Position numbers and translations under genes: made by a program. Below the pieces are notes generated by a model. It did no database searches. It had not been told where the DNA came from and saw only the letters and a program-made list of their open reading frames with translations. 64,000 nt of DNA from Cupriavidus basilensis (lineage in GTDB: Bacteria; Pseudomonadota; Gammaproteobacteria; Burkholderiales; Burkholderiaceae). Of this stretch, positions 38,473 to 44,016 are shown piece after piece. Location: the NCBI RefSeq assembly GCF_008801925.2, contig NZ_CP062803.1:1736001-1800000 (forward strand), written 5' to 3'. The first letter of the stretch is position 1. Every line of letters begins with the position of its first letter.

Positions 38473-39750
38473 ATGGCCCAAACCGCGAAATTCTCCGTGT
38501 CTATGAAACCACTGCACATCACCATCGTTGGCGCCGGCCTGGGAGGCTTATGCCTGGCGCAAGGGCTCAAGCAGCGGGGCATTGCCTTCGATGTGTACGA
38601 GCGCGATGCCGCGCTGGCCAGCCGTACGCAGGGCTACCGCATCCGGATCGACCACGCGGGTCAGCAGGCCTTGAAGGGCTGCCTGCCGGCGGCGTTGTTC
38701 AGCGTGTTCCAGTTGACCAGCGCCATCCCCGTCGCTGGCGTCAACGTAGTGGACACTGGCCTCGAGGCCGTCAGCGGCAGGTGGGTGGAGTCGTGGCGGC
38801 GTGCCCGTGGCGATGCGCCCGCCGCAGCGCAAGCAGAAGCAGAAGCGCAAGCCGAGGCGCAGGCGGAAGACCTGAGCGTGAATCGCCAGACGCTGCGCGA
38901 AGTCCTGATGCATGGCATCGAGGATCGGGTGCATTTCGGCAAGGCGTTCGTGCGTTACCGTGAAGACGAAGACGCGCGCGTGCAAACGGGCTTCTCCGAT
39001 GGTTCATCCGCCTTCTCGGACCTGCTCGTCGCGGCGGATGGCATTAATTCAAGGGTGCGCCGACGGCGCCTGCCGGACGCGGCACCGGCCGATACCGGGT
39101 TTGCCTGCCTCTACGGCAAGACCGATCCCACGCCTGCCACGCTGGAGCGGCTCTCCGGCTTGCTGCCGGCCAGGACGTCGATCGTCTTTGGCGATGGCCT
39201 GGCCGTCATCATCGATCCGATGCGGTTCCGCCCGCCGCCCGCGGGGTACCGCCTGAACATGCCTGGCGACTACCTCTACTGGGCCATCGTCGGCGCGCGC
39301 GAAACCCTTGGCATCGGTTGGGAAGCCGGGGATGCGTTGCAACAGGACGCGCTTGCCGCGCGCCTCGAACGCATCACGGCGCGATGGCATGCCGGCCTGC
39401 GCCCGCTGTTCCAGCAGAGCGATCGTGCCTCGCTGGCCATGGTGCCCGTCAGGACGGCCGATGTGCCCGCTGCCTGGCCAAGCAGTGCCGTCACGGTGCT
39501 GGGAGACGCCATCCATGCCATGAGCCCGGCCGGCGGCCTGGGGGCAAACACGGCGCTGCACGATGCGCTCCTGCTATCGCGGCAGCTGGGCGAGGCCGCC
39601 GCCGGCCGCCGTTCGCTGCGGGCGGCCATTGGCGGCTACGAAACCGCGATGCGGGAATACAGCGCGCGCGCCATCCTGGCGTCGCAGCGTGGGACAGAGG
39701 TGTTGCTGGGCGCCAGCGGCTGGCAAGCGGAGCGGGTCCTGGCCGGCTAG
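38473..39750 (+). CDS. FAD-dependent monooxygenase (PheA/TetX-like)
   Basis: A 425-residue class-A flavoprotein hydroxylase. The FAD motif VGAGLGGLCLAQGLKQRG is at about residues 15-33. The DG-type LLVAADGINSRVR follows in the middle, and TVLGDAIHAMSPAGGLGANTAL gives the second FAD motif. Family members hydroxylate aromatic or polyketide substrates with NAD(P)H and oxygen. An inserted Ala-Gln-Glu repeat at about 38820-38872 looks like a low-complexity linker. The start is uncertain: ATG at 38503 (MKPLHITIVG) would remove ten residues, and neither has a clear ribosome-binding site. Confidence 0.85.
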   Translation: MAQTAKFSVSMKPLHITIVGAGLGGLCLAQGLKQRGIAFDVYERDAALASRTQGYRIRIDHAGQQALKGCLPAALFSVFQLTSAIPVAGVNVVDTGLEAVSGRWVESWRRARGDAPAAAQAEAEAQAEAQAEDLSVNRQTLREVLMHGIEDRVHFGKAFVRYREDEDARVQTGFSDGSSAFSDLLVAADGINSRVRRRRLPDAAPADTGFACLYGKTDPTPATLERLSGLLPARTSIVFGDGLAVIIDPMRFRPPPAGYRLNMPGDYLYWAIVGARETLGIGWEAGDALQQDALAARLERITARWHAGLRPLFQQSDRASLAMVPVRTADVPAAWPSSAVTVLGDAIHAMSPAGGLGANTALHDALLLSRQLGEAAAGRRSLRAAIGGYETAMREYSARAILASQRGTEVLLGASGWQAERVLAG

Positions 39751-39933
39751 GCATGGAGATTGGGCAAGCGGGTGGCGTGACCTCGCGCAGACAAGCGCAC
39801 CCCGCGCGGCCAAGCGAAGGGGCCGCGCGCGGTTGCCGCTGCAAAGGTCCGAACCCGGGGCGCTATTGCCCAAGCGCGAGGATTGCCATGCGGCGGCGCG
39901 GCAACCTGGGTGGCCGCGCCTTTGGGCTGCTCG

Positions 39934-40257
39934 CTACTTCGATTTCGCGCCGTCCGTGTATGGGTCGGCCTTGCCGGCCTTCGCGCCATCCGTATAGGGA
40001 TCGGCCTTGCCGGCCTTGGCCCCGTCCGTGTAGGGATCGGGCTTGCCTTGCGTGGCATTCAGGTCCATTTGCGTGGATTGCTTCGCACCATCCGTGTACG
40101 GATCGAACTTGCCGGTTTTCGCCCCGTCCGTATAGGGATCGGCCTTGCCGGCCTTGGCCCCGTCGGTGTACGGGTCGAACTTCTTCTGCTGGCCATAGCT
40201 CAAGCCTGAAGCCGTTGCGGCGGCGACAAGTAACGTCAACGTGAGTACTCTGCGCAT
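39934..40257 (-). CDS. Exported DPYTDGAK-repeat protein (107 residues)
   Basis: A signal peptide (about residues 1-22) is followed by a mature protein made almost only of six copies of DPYTDGAK, starting at residues 28, 40, 52, 74, 86 and 98. The period is 12 residues (DPYTDGAKAGKA), with a ten-residue linker after the third. At DNA level this is a 36-bp repeat. GGAG lies 8 bp upstream of the ATG. I recognise no family and no catalytic residues. It is divergent from a larger protein with the related repeat, across a 573-bp control region. The repeat is rich in Asp, Lys, Gly and Tyr, so ion, polymer or cell-wall binding is possible but unproven. Confidence 0.85.
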   Translation of the reverse strand: MRRVLTLTLLVAAATASGLSYGQQKKFDPYTDGAKAGKADPYTDGAKTGKFDPYTDGAKQSTQMDLNATQGKPDPYTDGAKAGKADPYTDGAKAGKADPYTDGAKSK

Positions 40258-40598
40258 CTCTTGCTCCGGTGGTAAGGAGGTGGTCGCCTATGGTTCAGCG
40301 AGGGCGCGCCCGGTCACAGGCCGGCCGGAATAGCCGGCATCTGCGCCACGCCTGGCAAGCTGGGGCGGTAACCTCGGTGGGCCAGCGGGGCACGCAAGTC
40401 AAGGCAGGCCAGGGCGCATGAGAACTCGCCCCCGTCTGCCTATGCTGCGTCCCGCGCAGTTCATCCTAGGAGTGAATCCGGAGAGGCCGTAGTAAAACGT
40501 TGTAAATCCTTGTTGCGCTTTTTCCTTTCGGCCGCGCCACGTCCCATGTGCGCTTTGCGCGGTATCTTGGCCTTCTGGCATCCGATCTGAAAAACTCC

Positions 40599-40627
40599 TT
40601 GACTGTCTATCTACCAGTAGATAATAT
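40599..40627 (+). promoter_or_regulatory. Promoter P1 with TetR-type operator
   Basis: TTGACT (40599-40604), 17-bp spacer, TAATAT (40622-40627). The spacer is covered by TATCTAC-CA-GTAGATA (40608-40623), an inverted repeat that recurs in two other promoters nearby. Transcription would start near 40634. Confidence 0.75.
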
Positions 40628-40633
40628 TCACGA

Positions 40634-40718
40634 CATGGAAGCCGCTGCTCCGCCCCAGCAAGAAAGCTGAAGCAGGAAAGAGGATCCAGCGCATCACCCG
40701 GGGAATCCCCGTTTTTTT
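40634..40718 (+). ncRNA. Possible short terminated transcript (sRNA or leader)
   Basis: Downstream of P1, a hairpin CGGGG-AAT-CCCCG is followed directly by seven T (stem-loop 40699-40711, T-run 40712-40718). This predicts an RNA of about 85 nt. The only open frame in it is an 11-codon ATG-TGA (40635-40670) without a ribosome-binding site. It could be a small RNA or an attenuated leader ahead of the repeat gene. The stem is only 5 bp, so termination may be partial. Confidence 0.4.
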
Positions 40719-40746
40719 GGCTGGCTTATCTATCTACTGGTAGATA
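40717..40746 (+). promoter_or_regulatory. Promoter P2 with TetR-type operator
   Basis: TTGGCT (40717-40722), 18-bp spacer, TAGATA (40741-40746). The operator TATCTAC-TG-GTAGATA (40731-40746) overlaps spacer and -10. The same -35, spacing and operator offset are found before the TetR gene. It would drive the exported repeat-protein gene starting at 40831. Confidence 0.7.
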
Positions 40747-40830
40747 ACTAGCAAGAGAAGCGAAGGGTTCCAAAGCGTACCGATTCGATTCCGCCCAAGC
40801 GCGGGTCCTCAAATGGAAATGGAGAACATC

Positions 40831-41343
40831 ATGACCTCGAACCTCTTCGCCAAGAGCCTGATCACCGCCGCCGCCCTGGCTGCCGCGTTCGTTGCCGGCA
40901 CCGCCCAGGCTTCGGGCCCGAAGGACAGCACGTTCTCGGGTGACAAGTACGGCTACGTGTTCCGCACCACCACGCCCGACGCCTTCACCGATGGCGCGCG
41001 CAGCGGCAAGTTCGACCCATTCACCGAAGGCGCACGTGTTGGCAAGGCTGACCCGTACACGGACGGTGCCCGCGTTGTTGCCGGCCTGGATCGTAGCGGC
41101 GTGTCGGCCAGCCCGGCCCGCAGTGTTGACGCTTATACCGATGGCGCGCGCAGCGGCAAGTTCGACCCGTTCACCGAAGGCGCACGCGTTGGCAAGGCTG
41201 ATCCGTACACGGATGGTGCCCGCGTTGTTGCCGGCCTGGATCGTAGCGGCGTGTCGGCCAGCCCGGCCCGCAGCGTGGACGCCTACACCGATGGCGCGCG
41301 CGGCGGCAAGTTCGACGTGTTCAGCGAAGGCGCCAATGCCTGA
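40831..41343 (+). CDS. Exported DPYTDGAR-repeat protein (170 residues)
   Basis: The signal peptide MTSNLFAKSL... is cleaved after AQA (residue 27). The mature chain has a 50-residue unit present twice and partly a third time. Each unit holds three 12-residue repeats (D-x-[FY]-T-[DE]-GAR-x-GK), starting at residues 50, 62, 74, 100, 112, 124, 150 and 162, and an 18-residue spacer VVAGLDRSGVSASPARSV. The start at 40831 is set by GGAG 7 bp upstream; an ATG at 40813 is in frame but poorly placed. It is the larger relative of the divergent gene. Function unknown. Expression is probably under the local TetR protein. Confidence 0.85.
   Translation: MTSNLFAKSLITAAALAAAFVAGTAQASGPKDSTFSGDKYGYVFRTTTPDAFTDGARSGKFDPFTEGARVGKADPYTDGARVVAGLDRSGVSASPARSVDAYTDGARSGKFDPFTEGARVGKADPYTDGARVVAGLDRSGVSASPARSVDAYTDGARGGKFDVFSEGANA
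40978..41343 (+). repeat. 150-bp tandem repeat within the repeat-protein gene
   Basis: Units begin at 40978, 41128 and 41278 (the third is cut off after 66 bp by the gene end). The two full copies differ by only a few mostly silent changes, so the duplication is recent or homogenised. Each contains three 36-bp sub-repeats. Confidence 0.93.
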
Positions 41344-41432
41344 GTGCGGCAAGGGCATCCCGGCGATCGCCGCCTGGATGTCCGATGGCGGTTGGGAAAC
41401 AGAATGAGAATGAAACAGAGTAGGGGTGCATC

Positions 41433-41534
41433 ATGAGTTTACGAGACAGCTTCCTGATCCTGGCCGGCTGGGTGGTTCTGTGCGTTGCCAGTGGCTCTGC
41501 CATCACCGCGGTGGCGCAAGTGCTCCCGGCGTGA
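41433..41534 (+). CDS. 33-residue single-span membrane peptide
   Basis: An ATG with AGGGG 6 bp upstream opens a 33-codon frame: a short charged start MSLRDS, then one hydrophobic helix (about residues 7-29) and a PA C-terminus. It lies 89 bp after the repeat-protein gene and 120 bp before the TetR gene on the same strand. Its good ribosome-binding site, hydrophobic helix with an N-terminal Arg, and place between co-regulated genes suggest a real small membrane protein. It resembles no family I know. A cleavable signal is less likely, as almost nothing would remain. Confidence 0.6.
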   Translation: MSLRDSFLILAGWVVLCVASGSAITAVAQVLPA

Positions 41535-41614
41535 GCCGCCAAAGGGCGGCGATAAGCGCAATGAAGGCGTAACTTAGGGGCAACTAAGCCGGCTTGTTGC
41601 GACCGCACACGAAA

Positions 41615-41644
41615 TTGGCTTGAGGATCTATCGATAGGTAGATA
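41615..41644 (+). promoter_or_regulatory. tetR promoter with TetR-type operator
   Basis: TTGGCT (41615-41620), 18-bp spacer, TAGATA (41639-41644), with operator-like TATCGATAGGTAGATA (41629-41644; two mismatches to the other sites). The predicted start of transcription is only a few bases before the ATG at 41655, so the message would be almost leaderless. Confidence 0.68.
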
Positions 41645-41654
41645 AGATCGCGCT

Positions 41655-42221
41655 ATGAAAACGCAATCCGTACGCGAACAACTGCTCGAACACACGCTGG
41701 TGCTTATCCGCCGGCGCGGCTTCAATGGTTTCAGCTATCGCGACCTGGCCGAGCTGGTCGGCGTGAAGACGTCGAGCATCCATTACTACTTCCCCGCCAA
41801 GGGCGACCTGGTGCTGGAGGCGGTGAAGGAATACAGCGCCCGCATCTCCGAGCGGCTGCGCAGCGTGGATTCGTCGCTTTCCCCTGCCGCGCAGGCCGAG
41901 GGCTACCTCAACTTCCTGCGGACCGCGGCCTGCGGCGACCAGATCTGCCTAGCGGGCATGTTGTCCACTGAGACGCTATGCCTGCCGGAGGCGGTCCACG
42001 CCGAACTCAAGGCGTTCTACCGCATGAACGAGAACTGGCTGACGGGGCTGATCGAGCGCGCGCAGAAGGAATACGGCAAGGTCTACCCGGTGACGCCTCG
42101 CGCACTGGCGCAGGTGATCTACGGCGCGCTGCAGAACGGCTTGATCGTTGCGCGGCTGTTTGGGGCGCCTGAGCGGCTGGAGTCCGCCGCCGAGCTGCTG
42201 ATGGCTTCGGTATCCAAGTAG
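41655..42221 (+). CDS. TetR/AcrR-family repressor
   Basis: A 188-residue regulator. The N-terminal helix-turn-helix shows TLVLIRRRGFNGFSYRDLAELVGVKTSSIHYYFPAKGDLV (residues about 14-55), close to the AcuR/YxaF-type TetR group. The C-terminal ligand domain has CLAGMLSTETLCLPEAV with two cysteines and ALAQVIYGALQNGLIVARLFG. Three copies of a TATCTAC-N2-GTAGATA motif lie in promoters of this gene and the repeat-protein genes. It is therefore the probable repressor of the locus and of itself. A strong terminator follows. Confidence 0.93.
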   Translation: MKTQSVREQLLEHTLVLIRRRGFNGFSYRDLAELVGVKTSSIHYYFPAKGDLVLEAVKEYSARISERLRSVDSSLSPAAQAEGYLNFLRTAACGDQICLAGMLSTETLCLPEAVHAELKAFYRMNENWLTGLIERAQKEYGKVYPVTPRALAQVIYGALQNGLIVARLFGAPERLESAAELLMASVSK

Positions 42222-42258
42222 GACGAACAAGCAGCGCGCCGCTGGCTCCCGGCATGTG

Positions 42259-42288
42259 AAAAAGCCGACCTGACGAGGTCGGCTTTTT
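42259..42288. terminator. Intrinsic terminator after the tetR gene
   Basis: AAAAAGCCGACCT-GACG-AGGTCGGCTTTTT, a 13-bp perfect stem with A and T arms. It lies between tetR and the convergent Nudix-MBL gene and can work in both directions. Confidence 0.92.
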
Positions 42289-42309
42289 GTTTGCATCGCG
42301 CGCCGCGCT

Positions 42310-44016
42310 TCAGCCGGCTGCGCTCTCCAGCACCTGCCACTTCTCGTCGGACTCCTGCACGCGTTCGTCCTGCACCAGCTTGAGCAGGTGCGCCAGCAGC
42401 GAGCGCTTTGCCACGGGGAGCATGCGTTCCGGCACGTCGTCGTAGACGCGCAGGAGCAGGGCGTCGATGCTGGTTTCGCCGAGCGCTCGCAGCGCGTTGA
42501 GCACCTTTGCCTCGCGCTGCATGCGATGGCGGATCAAGGTGCGGATGGCGTCGGCGGGCCGGGGCATCAGGAAGCCGTGGCCGGGTGCGAGCCACTCCAG
42601 GTCTTCGTCCTGCAACGCGGTGAGCGAGGCCAGGTACGCGCGCATGTCACCGTCGGGCGGATTGATCACGACGGTGGATCCCTGCATCACATGGTCGCCA
42701 GTGAACAAGGTCTTCTCTTCCTCAAGCAGGAAGCAAAGATGATTGGATGCATGCCCCGGCGTGTGGACGACGCGCAGCGTGCAGCCTTCGCCCAGCGCCA
42801 GGCGCTCGCCGTGCACCAGGATGCGCCCGGGCTGGAAGGTCTGGTCCTGGCGTGGCGTCTGCGGCGCGGGTCGGCCCAGCACCGCCGCGCCGGTGGCGGC
42901 CTTGAGCCTGGATGTCGCCGGCGAGTGGTCGATGTGGGTGTGGGTGGCCAGGATCCAGCGGATCGGGCCGGGCGCGGCCGCCAGCACGGCGTCCACATGG
43001 GCTTCGTCGTCGGGGCCCGGATCGATCACGGCCCATTCGTTGCGCGTGGGATCGCCCACAAAGTACGTATTGGTGCCGGGTCCGGTCATCACGCTGCCAT
43101 TGCCGGCCGTGACGCGCCAGATGCGTTCGGACAGGCGCACCGCGGCGCCGGTCGCTAGCTCATAGCGCGCATGGCCCTGGCCTTGCGGGTCGATGCGCTC
43201 GATCTCGGCATAGGCGGGCTCGCTGGGCAGCACGGGCCGCAGGCCGCCACTGCCCTGGGCCAGGCGGGGCATGACGCGCGCAATGTCGCGCAACTGTGCC
43301 GCGTGGTCAAAGCAGGCCTGGGCGGTGTCGAAGCGGGCAATCGACGCCAGCGTGCGCCGCGTGACGGCCACCAGCTTCAGGCCGCGCGCCGGATCGATGG
43401 CATCGCCTGGGCGTATCCAGAGATGCTCTACGGCCTCGTCGCCATCGTGCGTGGCGGACTGGCCGGCGGGCGCCACGGCCACGAAAAAGCGCGTGTCGAA
43501 GCGCTTGGGCAAGCCAGGTGGCGTCAGCCAGTGGCTGTGATATGCCAGGCGGTCCACCGCCAGGCGCACGCCAAGCCGCTCGCAGAGCTGCGCCATGCCC
43601 GGTCCACCGCTGCGCGCCGACTGCCGCAGCCATGCCTGCTGCGTGGCATCGAGCGTGTCCAGCGCGATCAGCTTGCCATCGGTATCGCTTGCAAACAGCA
43701 GGCCGGCTTCCTCGAAACACTCGCGCACGGCTGCCAGGTAGAAATCCAGGCCGCCATCAGGCAGCTTGAGACGAGCGCTGGCCACGGCATCATCCAGGCC
43801 GGTGCAGGCATCGCGCAGGGTTTTGTCCTGGGGGTCGAGCGTGCCGCCGGGAAAGACGAAGGCGCCGCTGCTGCGGTCGTCGTTGCGCTCGGGGCGGCGC
43901 ACCAGCAGCACTTCCATGCCGGCCGCGCCATCGCGCACTACCAGGATGCTTGCGGCCTGGCGCAGGGAGGGGGGGCGTGAGGGAGGCGGGCTTCCGCTCT
44001 GTTCTTGTTCGCGCAT
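42310..44016 (-). CDS. Nudix hydrolase-metallo-beta-lactamase fusion protein
   Basis: A 568-residue protein of two enzyme domains. The N-terminal Nudix domain (about 20-270) has FVFPGGTLDP and, after an insertion of about 35 residues, FYLAAVRECFEEAGLLF; a split Nudix box of this kind is known from NUDT19-like enzymes. The C-terminal metallo-beta-lactamase domain (about 290-560) has THTHIDHSPA, HTPGHASNHLCF, FTGDHVM and a winged-helix end as in LACTB2 relatives. The likely chemistry is cleavage of a CoA- or nucleoside-diphosphate-linked compound plus a thioester/phosphoester hydrolysis. The pairing of substrates is unknown. It stands alone. Confidence 0.88.
   Translation of the reverse strand: MREQEQSGSPPPSRPPSLRQAASILVVRDGAAGMEVLLVRRPERNDDRSSGAFVFPGGTLDPQDKTLRDACTGLDDAVASARLKLPDGGLDFYLAAVRECFEEAGLLFASDTDGKLIALDTLDATQQAWLRQSARSGGPGMAQLCERLGVRLAVDRLAYHSHWLTPPGLPKRFDTRFFVAVAPAGQSATHDGDEAVEHLWIRPGDAIDPARGLKLVAVTRRTLASIARFDTAQACFDHAAQLRDIARVMPRLAQGSGGLRPVLPSEPAYAEIERIDPQGQGHARYELATGAAVRLSERIWRVTAGNGSVMTGPGTNTYFVGDPTRNEWAVIDPGPDDEAHVDAVLAAAPGPIRWILATHTHIDHSPATSRLKAATGAAVLGRPAPQTPRQDQTFQPGRILVHGERLALGEGCTLRVVHTPGHASNHLCFLLEEEKTLFTGDHVMQGSTVVINPPDGDMRAYLASLTALQDEDLEWLAPGHGFLMPRPADAIRTLIRHRMQREAKVLNALRALGETSIDALLLRVYDDVPERMLPVAKRSLLAHLLKLVQDERVQESDEKWQVLESAAG

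Follow-up and report, generated by a model that had tools for sequence, protein, structure and literature searches.

A TetR/NemR-like repressor, its operators and a terminator-bearing leader as a candidate thiol-stress switch of CopQ-family genes in Cupriavidus

What are the two exported, repeat-built proteins encoded on opposite strands in this 64,000-nucleotide stretch of the Cupriavidus basilensis genome (the window; the genome comprises 8.94 Mb across 8 contigs), and what controls them? A preliminary description, made from the letters alone, had grouped them with a 33-residue membrane peptide and a TetR gene. All four open reading frames (ORFs) were confirmed (Table 1), as were, by unit counts and Tandem Repeats Finder, the six repeat copies of one protein and the eight copies, arranged in a 50-residue super-repeat, of the other. 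That no named family carries this repeat turned out to be wrong: judging from their sequences, both proteins belong to the CopQ-like family, and the plus-strand gene is the counterpart of mmsQ/mmtQ of Cupriavidus metallidurans. New here is the setting of mmsQ/mmtQ-type genes, which sit in a module ordered as promoter P1, operator op1, leader, terminator, operator op2, repeat gene, 33-aa membrane peptide and tetR. Taken together, the sequence evidence moderately favours a thiol-stress circuit, in which a TetR/NemR-like repressor with an invariant cysteine switches the mmsQ/mmtQ-type gene through both the promoter and the terminator.

CopQ-family genes in a conserved module

The CopQ-like proteins of C. 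metallidurans (CopQ, CzcJ, MmmQ, MmtQ and MmsQ) form a published family (PMC2864759; literature is cited here and below as far as the available passages of each source go). Strain CH34 possesses 21 copQ homologues, and the family was termed poorly characterised (PMC7563307). MmrQ and PrsQ are also listed among the CopQ-like proteins of this species. MmsQ of CH34 aligned with the plus-strand protein of the window (E 9e-56, 57%), and CopQ, located on pMOL30 through its repeat and its place in the cop cluster, gave weak alignments with the two window proteins (E 2e-8 and 6e-11). Several homologues carry the record name 'copper resistance protein CopQ' in public databases. Neither repeat protein scored at the cut-off of any Pfam or NCBIfam model, and the literal string DPYTDGA did not occur in the literature searched.

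The window proteins share with the CopQ-like family their export, DxxTDG-type repeats with fixed spacers, a large number of paralogs, a presumed link to metals and an occurrence in Cupriavidus plus one more genus. In contrast, they possess 6 and 8 repeats compared with 3-4 in CopQ-like proteins, and lack both the Arg before the Asp and the His/Met of the CopQ repeat; of the repeated family motif RDXXTDG they retain the DXXTDG part, in strict or relaxed form, and MmsQ is mostly without this Arg too. The minus-strand protein (107 aa) contains DPYTDGAK six times, with DXXTDG strict in all six units, and its gene was resolved by Tandem Repeats Finder into 6.7 copies of a 36-bp unit (66% matches). 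The plus-strand ORF spans 176 aa counted from its first ATG, and the ATG at 40831 (170 aa, MTSNLF...) is probably the start, as relatives start there or nearby. By eye, its eight units are one DAFTDGAR, two DPFTEGAR, two DPYTDGAR, two DAYTDGAR and one DVFSEGA, so that DXXTDG is strict in five of them (the others being DPFTEG, twice, and DVFSEG); the 150-bp unit found in this gene (2.4 copies, 92% matches) corresponds to the super-repeat. The N-terminus of both proteins is hydrophobic by eye, a putative signal sequence.

In a search confined to Burkholderiaceae, the repeat family was found in 75 of 398 genomes and 2 of 25 genera, the second genus presumably being Ralstonia. All 12 plasmid-collection records matching the repeat protein are from Cupriavidus, as are nearly all named homologues in the database (120 of 142 listed). 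The window genome shows 28 family-matching places at E ≤ 1, and the stretches read contain 19 ORFs with at least two repeats (2 in the window locus, 17 elsewhere). Two more family members, L030 and L031 (G000:C2, near 573 and 555 kb), lie about 17 kb apart; their N-terminal halves are almost identical and their repeat numbers differ.

TetR homologues (E ≤ 1e-20) are present in 59 of 60 Cupriavidus genomes, and the operator motif TATCTACYRGTAGATA at up to one mismatch in 58, with the reversed-pattern control giving none in all 60. Among 72 unique TetR ORFs from chosen loci, a non-random sample, a repeat ORF lies no more than 1.7 kb upstream of 71, and 70 are preceded by two operators spaced 80-175 bp; for the remaining two, just 629 and 970 nt of upstream sequence were available. 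The peptide was recognised upstream of 62; of 80 instances collected, counting duplicates and one false match, 74 are 33 aa long. In the window, the motif occurs in perfect form as op1 and op2 and with three mismatches as op3, against a chance mean of 0.03; at up to two mismatches the whole window genome holds four operator places, all perfect and two per module copy (reversed-pattern control, one place). Several gaps weigh against the proposed circuit: ten of the 72 TetR loci are without a recognisable peptide, locus L132 is without a repeat ORF, and an operator-like site (up to 4 mismatches) lies within 60 bp of the tetR start in only 52 of the 72. Loci L156 and L157 hold two tandem modules; a repeat gene and a TetR belong to each.

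The divergent six-repeat gene is confined to one clade among the loci read: with 6-7 repeats, it occurs in five of six loci of the window's clade (a contig end truncates the sixth), and 14 other loci lack it; no operator was found near its start (ATG 40257), the nearest, op1, lying about 350 bp off. Of the unit first proposed, TetR, repeat protein and peptide are kept together in Cupriavidus; the divergent pair as its core is not supported, and a shared operator for the pair was rejected.

Table 1. Features of the locus, in window positions
Feature	Position	Strand	Basis or remark
Promoter P1	40599..40627	+	TTGACT, 17-nt spacer, TAATAT
Operator op1, TATCTACCAGTAGATA	40608..40623	.	within P1 spacer; perfect motif copy
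Leader transcript (inferred)	40635..40718	+	ATGG at expected +1; U-run at 3' end
Intrinsic-terminator-like hairpin	40699..40718	+	CGGGG-AAT-CCCCG then T7
Operator op2, TATCTACTGGTAGATA	40731..40746	.	12 nt past U-run; perfect motif copy
CopQ/MmsQ-family exported repeat protein, 8 repeats	40831..41343	+	alternative start 40813
33-aa membrane peptide, MSLRDSFLILAGWVVLCVASGSAITAVAQVLPA	41433..41534	+	ORF between repeat gene and tetR
Likely tetR promoter, TTGAGG-17-TAAGAT	41620..41648	+	judged by eye
Operator op3, degenerate	41629..41644	.	3 mismatches; within likely tetR promoter
TetR/NemR-like repressor, invariant Cys98	41655..42221	+	ORF, domain match, alignment
Second CopQ-family exported protein, 6 repeats	39934..40257	-	clade-limited neighbour; TetR control only hypothetical

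A cysteine-bearing TetR and its tetR-ohr relatives

The module TetR contains a TetR_N domain (PF00440; E 2.9e-9, 37 bits against a cut-off of 24). Cys98 is present in all 70 aligned TetRs (two long ORFs of the 72 were omitted) and also in 2g7s and 3on4, the relatives of known structure that lie closest. A profile comparison also related NemR (4yze; E 7.2e-11), at a greater distance than these two. In Escherichia coli, NemR is a cysteine sensor of electrophiles and HOCl (PMC7464077). Both regulators are TetR-family proteins, a likeness drawn at profile level. Their targets differ, and the NemR operator differs from the module operator. The module TetR stayed below the cut-off of every NCBIfam equivalog, with no NemR model among the matches, and 'repressor of nem operon' appears only in some source names.

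At E ≤ 1e-35, TetR homologues were detected in 232 of the 398 Burkholderiaceae genomes and in 11 of the 25 genera including Cupriavidus; the second repeat-bearing genus is not among them. Ten sister-genus loci, taken from the best-scoring TetR matches, were read. The sister matches listed share 45-49% identity with the module TetR, and the operator (up to 3 mismatches) lies upstream of tetR in nine of the ten loci, with L193 showing a longer-spaced variant. A repeat ORF was found in none of the ten. Instead, a gene for the organic-hydroperoxide reductase Ohr follows in six, in all of which an operator separates it from tetR, and the three Ohr proteins tested were all identified by TIGR03561. 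Conversely, 17 Cupriavidus module sequences gave no Ohr match, and a weak OsmC-type match (27%) was seen in L003. The Burkholderia tetR-ohr(-hydrolase) loci and the module thus share a homologous TetR, the operator, Cys98 and the promoter geometry with ATGGA at +1, and differ in the neighbour, which is a peroxidase gene in the former. This suggests that, between genera, the neighbouring gene was exchanged and the regulator retained its operator and promoter.

A B. pyrrocinia record is annotated as TetR-Ohr-alpha/beta hydrolase, and tblastn revealed the same order in a B. cenocepacia record. This is the arrangement of BCAS0084-0086, which are reported as induced 5.9-, 49.3- and 96.6-fold with H2O2 and 3.8-, 20.3- and 11.3-fold with NaOCl (PMC2830190). 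On these grounds, we infer that the module TetR is a thiol-stress repressor rewired onto a CopQ-family gene. Two points speak against this reading: four of the ten sister loci are without ohr, and the orthology to BCAS0084 is based on gene arrangement and on a different B. cenocepacia strain.

Alternatively, TetR might sense a small molecule or metal in a ligand pocket, with the repeat protein serving as a periplasmic carboxylate metal sink and with no thiol chemistry involved. The differing metal sets to which CopQ-like genes respond (PMC2864759) would agree with such a regulator. However, an orthologous TetR adjoins a peroxidase gene in six of ten sister loci, and we regard this alternative as unlikely. 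In the favoured thiol-stress circuit, thiol-reactive stress (Cd, Hg, Pb, oxidants or hydroperoxides) would modify or load Cys98, upon which TetR would leave its operators. This would tie the mmsQ/mmtQ branch to thiol and peroxide stress instead of to one metal, and the dedicated, genus-wide TetR with a defined operator makes this branch a testable circuit.

In the sister genera, ohr stands beside tetR with an operator before it in L192-L195, L199 and L201-L203, and in these loci ohr is possibly under TetR-type rather than MarR-type (OhrR) control. In L197, the TetR homologue is accompanied by two operator-like sites before an ORF that takes the place of ohr and was judged by eye to be aldehyde-dehydrogenase-like.

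Promoter, leader and second operator

The three operators were initially placed in three promoters. This holds for op1, inside the spacer of the promoter-like site P1, and for op3, inside the likely tetR promoter, which was missed by the consensus promoter scan and from which the tetR ATG is only 6 nt away, making tetR leaderless. It does not hold for op2, around which the same kind of scan detected no promoter. Regulation by TetR itself is presumed from these operators.

To compare the region between both operators, 110 unique operator pairs were collected, of which 13 without a downstream repeat gene (mostly the same sites on the other strand) were removed, leaving 97 leaders. The filter demanded TTG at -35, and with this requirement TTGACT is the -35 element in 69 of the 97. 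ATGG is found at the expected +1 in 95, GTGG in one, and a one-position shift in another. The predicted leaders are 47-107 nt long and poorly conserved (mean column identity 40%). In contrast to the op1-op2 distance, which varies between 87 and 147 bp, the distance from the end of the U-run to op2 is constant at 12-14 nt in 97 of 97 leaders, with spacer letters only partly conserved. Among 53 representatives less than 90% alike, used for stems, promoter enrichment and the stop count, 50 have a stem before the U-run; 21 different stems were found, and a mean of 4.6% of shuffles were as good. The hairpin of the window comes from a scan of positions 39800-42400 in which three terminator-like sites were counted, compared with 2.3 expected in shuffles.

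The sigma70-like promoter signal between the U-run and the gene showed no enrichment over shuffles in these representatives. Therefore, the leader is read as an attenuator that the gene's own transcription has to pass. In the off state, TetR dimers on op1 would block initiation at P1, and dimers on op2, just beyond the intrinsic terminator, would act as a roadblock at which leaky transcripts stop. In the on state, after TetR has left, P1 would fire, and polymerase reading through the leader would yield the exported repeat protein and the 33-aa membrane peptide. TetR would also repress itself through op3.

DNA-bound proteins stall polymerase roughly 12-14 nt upstream of their site. A more specific mechanism can tentatively be proposed from this spacing, in which op2-bound TetR stalls polymerase with its active centre on the U-tract, so that near-complete termination would occur only with TetR bound; such a repressor-clamped attenuator would have moved with its circuit from a peroxidase gene to a CopQ-family envelope protein. 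A lac-repressor roadblock is reported to hold polymerase within a terminator region (PMC1950744, in passages that give no distance). The module would offer a naturally occurring example of a terminator with a repressor positioned at constant distance from it.

Several observations stand against the proposed switch. The stems are short, often 4-5 bp, three of the 53 representatives have none, and at least 2 of the 50 stems (L087 and L118) are not credible. RNAalifold on a MAFFT alignment gave no consensus leader structure, and a helix closing the 5' end of the leader was no better than in shuffles. In addition, the -35 filter left out leader L094, whose +1 is ACGG.

The P1 transcript may also be viewed as an independent small RNA, about 50-110 nt in length and ended by a terminator of its own, the repeat gene being served by a promoter near op2 that a simple consensus misses. 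A promoter-to-terminator unit with ATGG at +1 has the outline of such a gene, and op2 as operator of a second promoter would account for the conservation of op2. The lack of sigma70-like enrichment from the U-run to the gene argues against it, as do the low identity of the leader and the absence of an Rfam match (no covariance model hit at E ≤ 1 in 39700-42400), which makes this explanation improbable. A second promoter at op2 was rejected as a candidate because of the same lack of enrichment. A conserved 5' hairpin UGGA...UCCA is not claimed either, although some individual folds show it, since the mean shuffle fraction was 0.43 and only 5 of the 50 representatives tested (out of 53) reached 0.05 or less.

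The same promoter has ATGGA at +1 in the sister genera too, where tetR itself begins with it, as a pattern showed for 11 of 12 cases and inspection by eye for the remaining one, L192. Because of this, P1 and the leader of Cupriavidus probably descend from an ancestral leaderless tetR promoter, and the switch would have been taken over from an ancestral tetR-ohr locus that persists in the sister genera. The same likeness would also suit another view, in which leader and ATGG are a relic of the leaderless tetR start, the terminator merely insulates, and op1 and op2 act by looping or double occupancy. In agreement with a relic, the mini-ORF shows no coding constraint: a leader peptide was rejected on the basis of 26, 12 and 12 stops in frames 0, 1 and 2, and of 79 synonymous against 545 non-synonymous codon differences in close pairs among all 97 leaders. 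The commonest op1-op2 distances, 123-125 bp, would be compatible with looping. However, it is the U-run-op2 distance and not the op1-op2 distance that is held constant; looping through a fixed op1-op2 phase was discarded on account of this variable distance, and the relic view as a whole seems possible but rather doubtful.

Five hand-picked genomes with two alike modules show 94-97% identity between copies in the leader, 99-100% in the 5' untranslated region and 97-99% in the repeat protein, whereas the TetRs share only 64-72% in the four of these genomes in which both copies have a TetR. In one of the five, the window genome, the second copy (L029, G000:C1:2815500-2830500) compared with window positions 40560-42221 gives 98% for the repeat protein and only 66% for TetR. 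Between the window genome and G021 the order is reversed, with 76% for the repeat protein and 88% for TetR. This pattern fits gene conversion of leader and repeat gene. Near-identity of copies is not universal, as the repeat protein at 770.8 kb of CH34 shares only 65% with mmsQ.

The repeat protein and its counterparts in C. metallidurans CH34

AlphaFold2 (AF2) predicted only the signal helix (residues 3-25) of the plus-strand repeat protein as folded, with a mean pLDDT of 48.2; as a counterpoint, a low pLDDT says little about disorder when the input is 27 repetitive sequences. Mature TetR-linked repeat proteins were extracted for 92 of the 97 leaders. They contain Cys in none, His in 13 and Met in 5, and their charge is nearly balanced, with a mean D+E of 20.4 compared with a mean K+R of 18.9. 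The absence of Cys and the scarcity of His and Met argue against soft-metal chelation. Together with the balanced charge and the lack of a predicted fold beyond the signal helix, they favour a disordered protective envelope protein, which would be soluble and might buffer the periplasm under metal and oxidant stress. For the metal-sink alternative discussed above, the acidic repeats are in its favour, as is the requirement for the CopQ-like proteins PrsQ1 and PrsQ2 for silver resistance in a C. metallidurans mutant (PMC7380067); against it stand the same near-equality of K+R and D+E and the near-absence of soft-metal ligands. The resemblance of the repeat to calcium loops noted in the preliminary description did not hold up: a calcium/anthrax-PA-type loop was matched only by PF03495 at E 0.033 and 0.048, below the Pfam cut-off.

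Cupriavidus contains many CopQ-like proteins, several of which are strongly induced by metals. For the mmsQ/mmtQ-type genes, strong metal induction was reported in 2010, with mmtQ, mmsQ and mmsQ1 apparently unlinked to any resistance locus; mmtQ responded strongly to Cd, Hg and Pb, less so (moderate induction) to Zn and not to Cu or Ni (PMC2864759). The response to Cd, Hg and Pb counts in favour of the thiol-stress reading. The module supplies a dedicated TetR, whereas the available passages of PMC2864759 name no such regulator for mmsQ/mmtQ. The literature passages searched contain no link of a TetR to mmsQ or CopQ-like genes, a single 'TetR' mention in PMC7380067 lying outside them; Rmet_4908, Rmet_5594 and Rmet_4187 were found in PMC2864759 alone, whose passages on TetR hold no link to them. 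Another stress-regulated CopQ-like gene is prsQ2, involved in silver resistance, which is controlled by the activating two-component response regulator AgrR and not by a TetR repressor (PMC7380067).

Genome G031, taken as CH34, carries three modules on the chromid, at 770.8, 1570.8 and 2348.8 kb. A single residue out of 165 separates the repeat proteins encoded at 1570.8 and 2348.8 kb, which fits mmsQ and its 'almost identical paralog' mmsQ1, and the copy at 770.8 kb agrees with mmtQ. When Rmet numbers were interpolated from mmsQ and mmsQ1, mmmQ was predicted at 1064 kb and mmtQ at 753 kb; the nearest family matches are at 1058.9 kb (weak, with two in-frame stops) and at 770.8 kb, respectively, the next one after the latter lying at 856 kb (E 0.03). 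Two points weaken the use of mmtQ for the thiol-stress reading: the identity of the 770.8-kb locus comes from gene-number interpolation only and is 18 kb off, and the mmtQ induction is given as 'data not shown' (PMC2864759). The mmsQ1-like copy (L145, G031:C4:2346500-2351500) has neither tetR nor peptide within the 5 kb read, but retains op1, the leader and op2, and may be controlled in trans.

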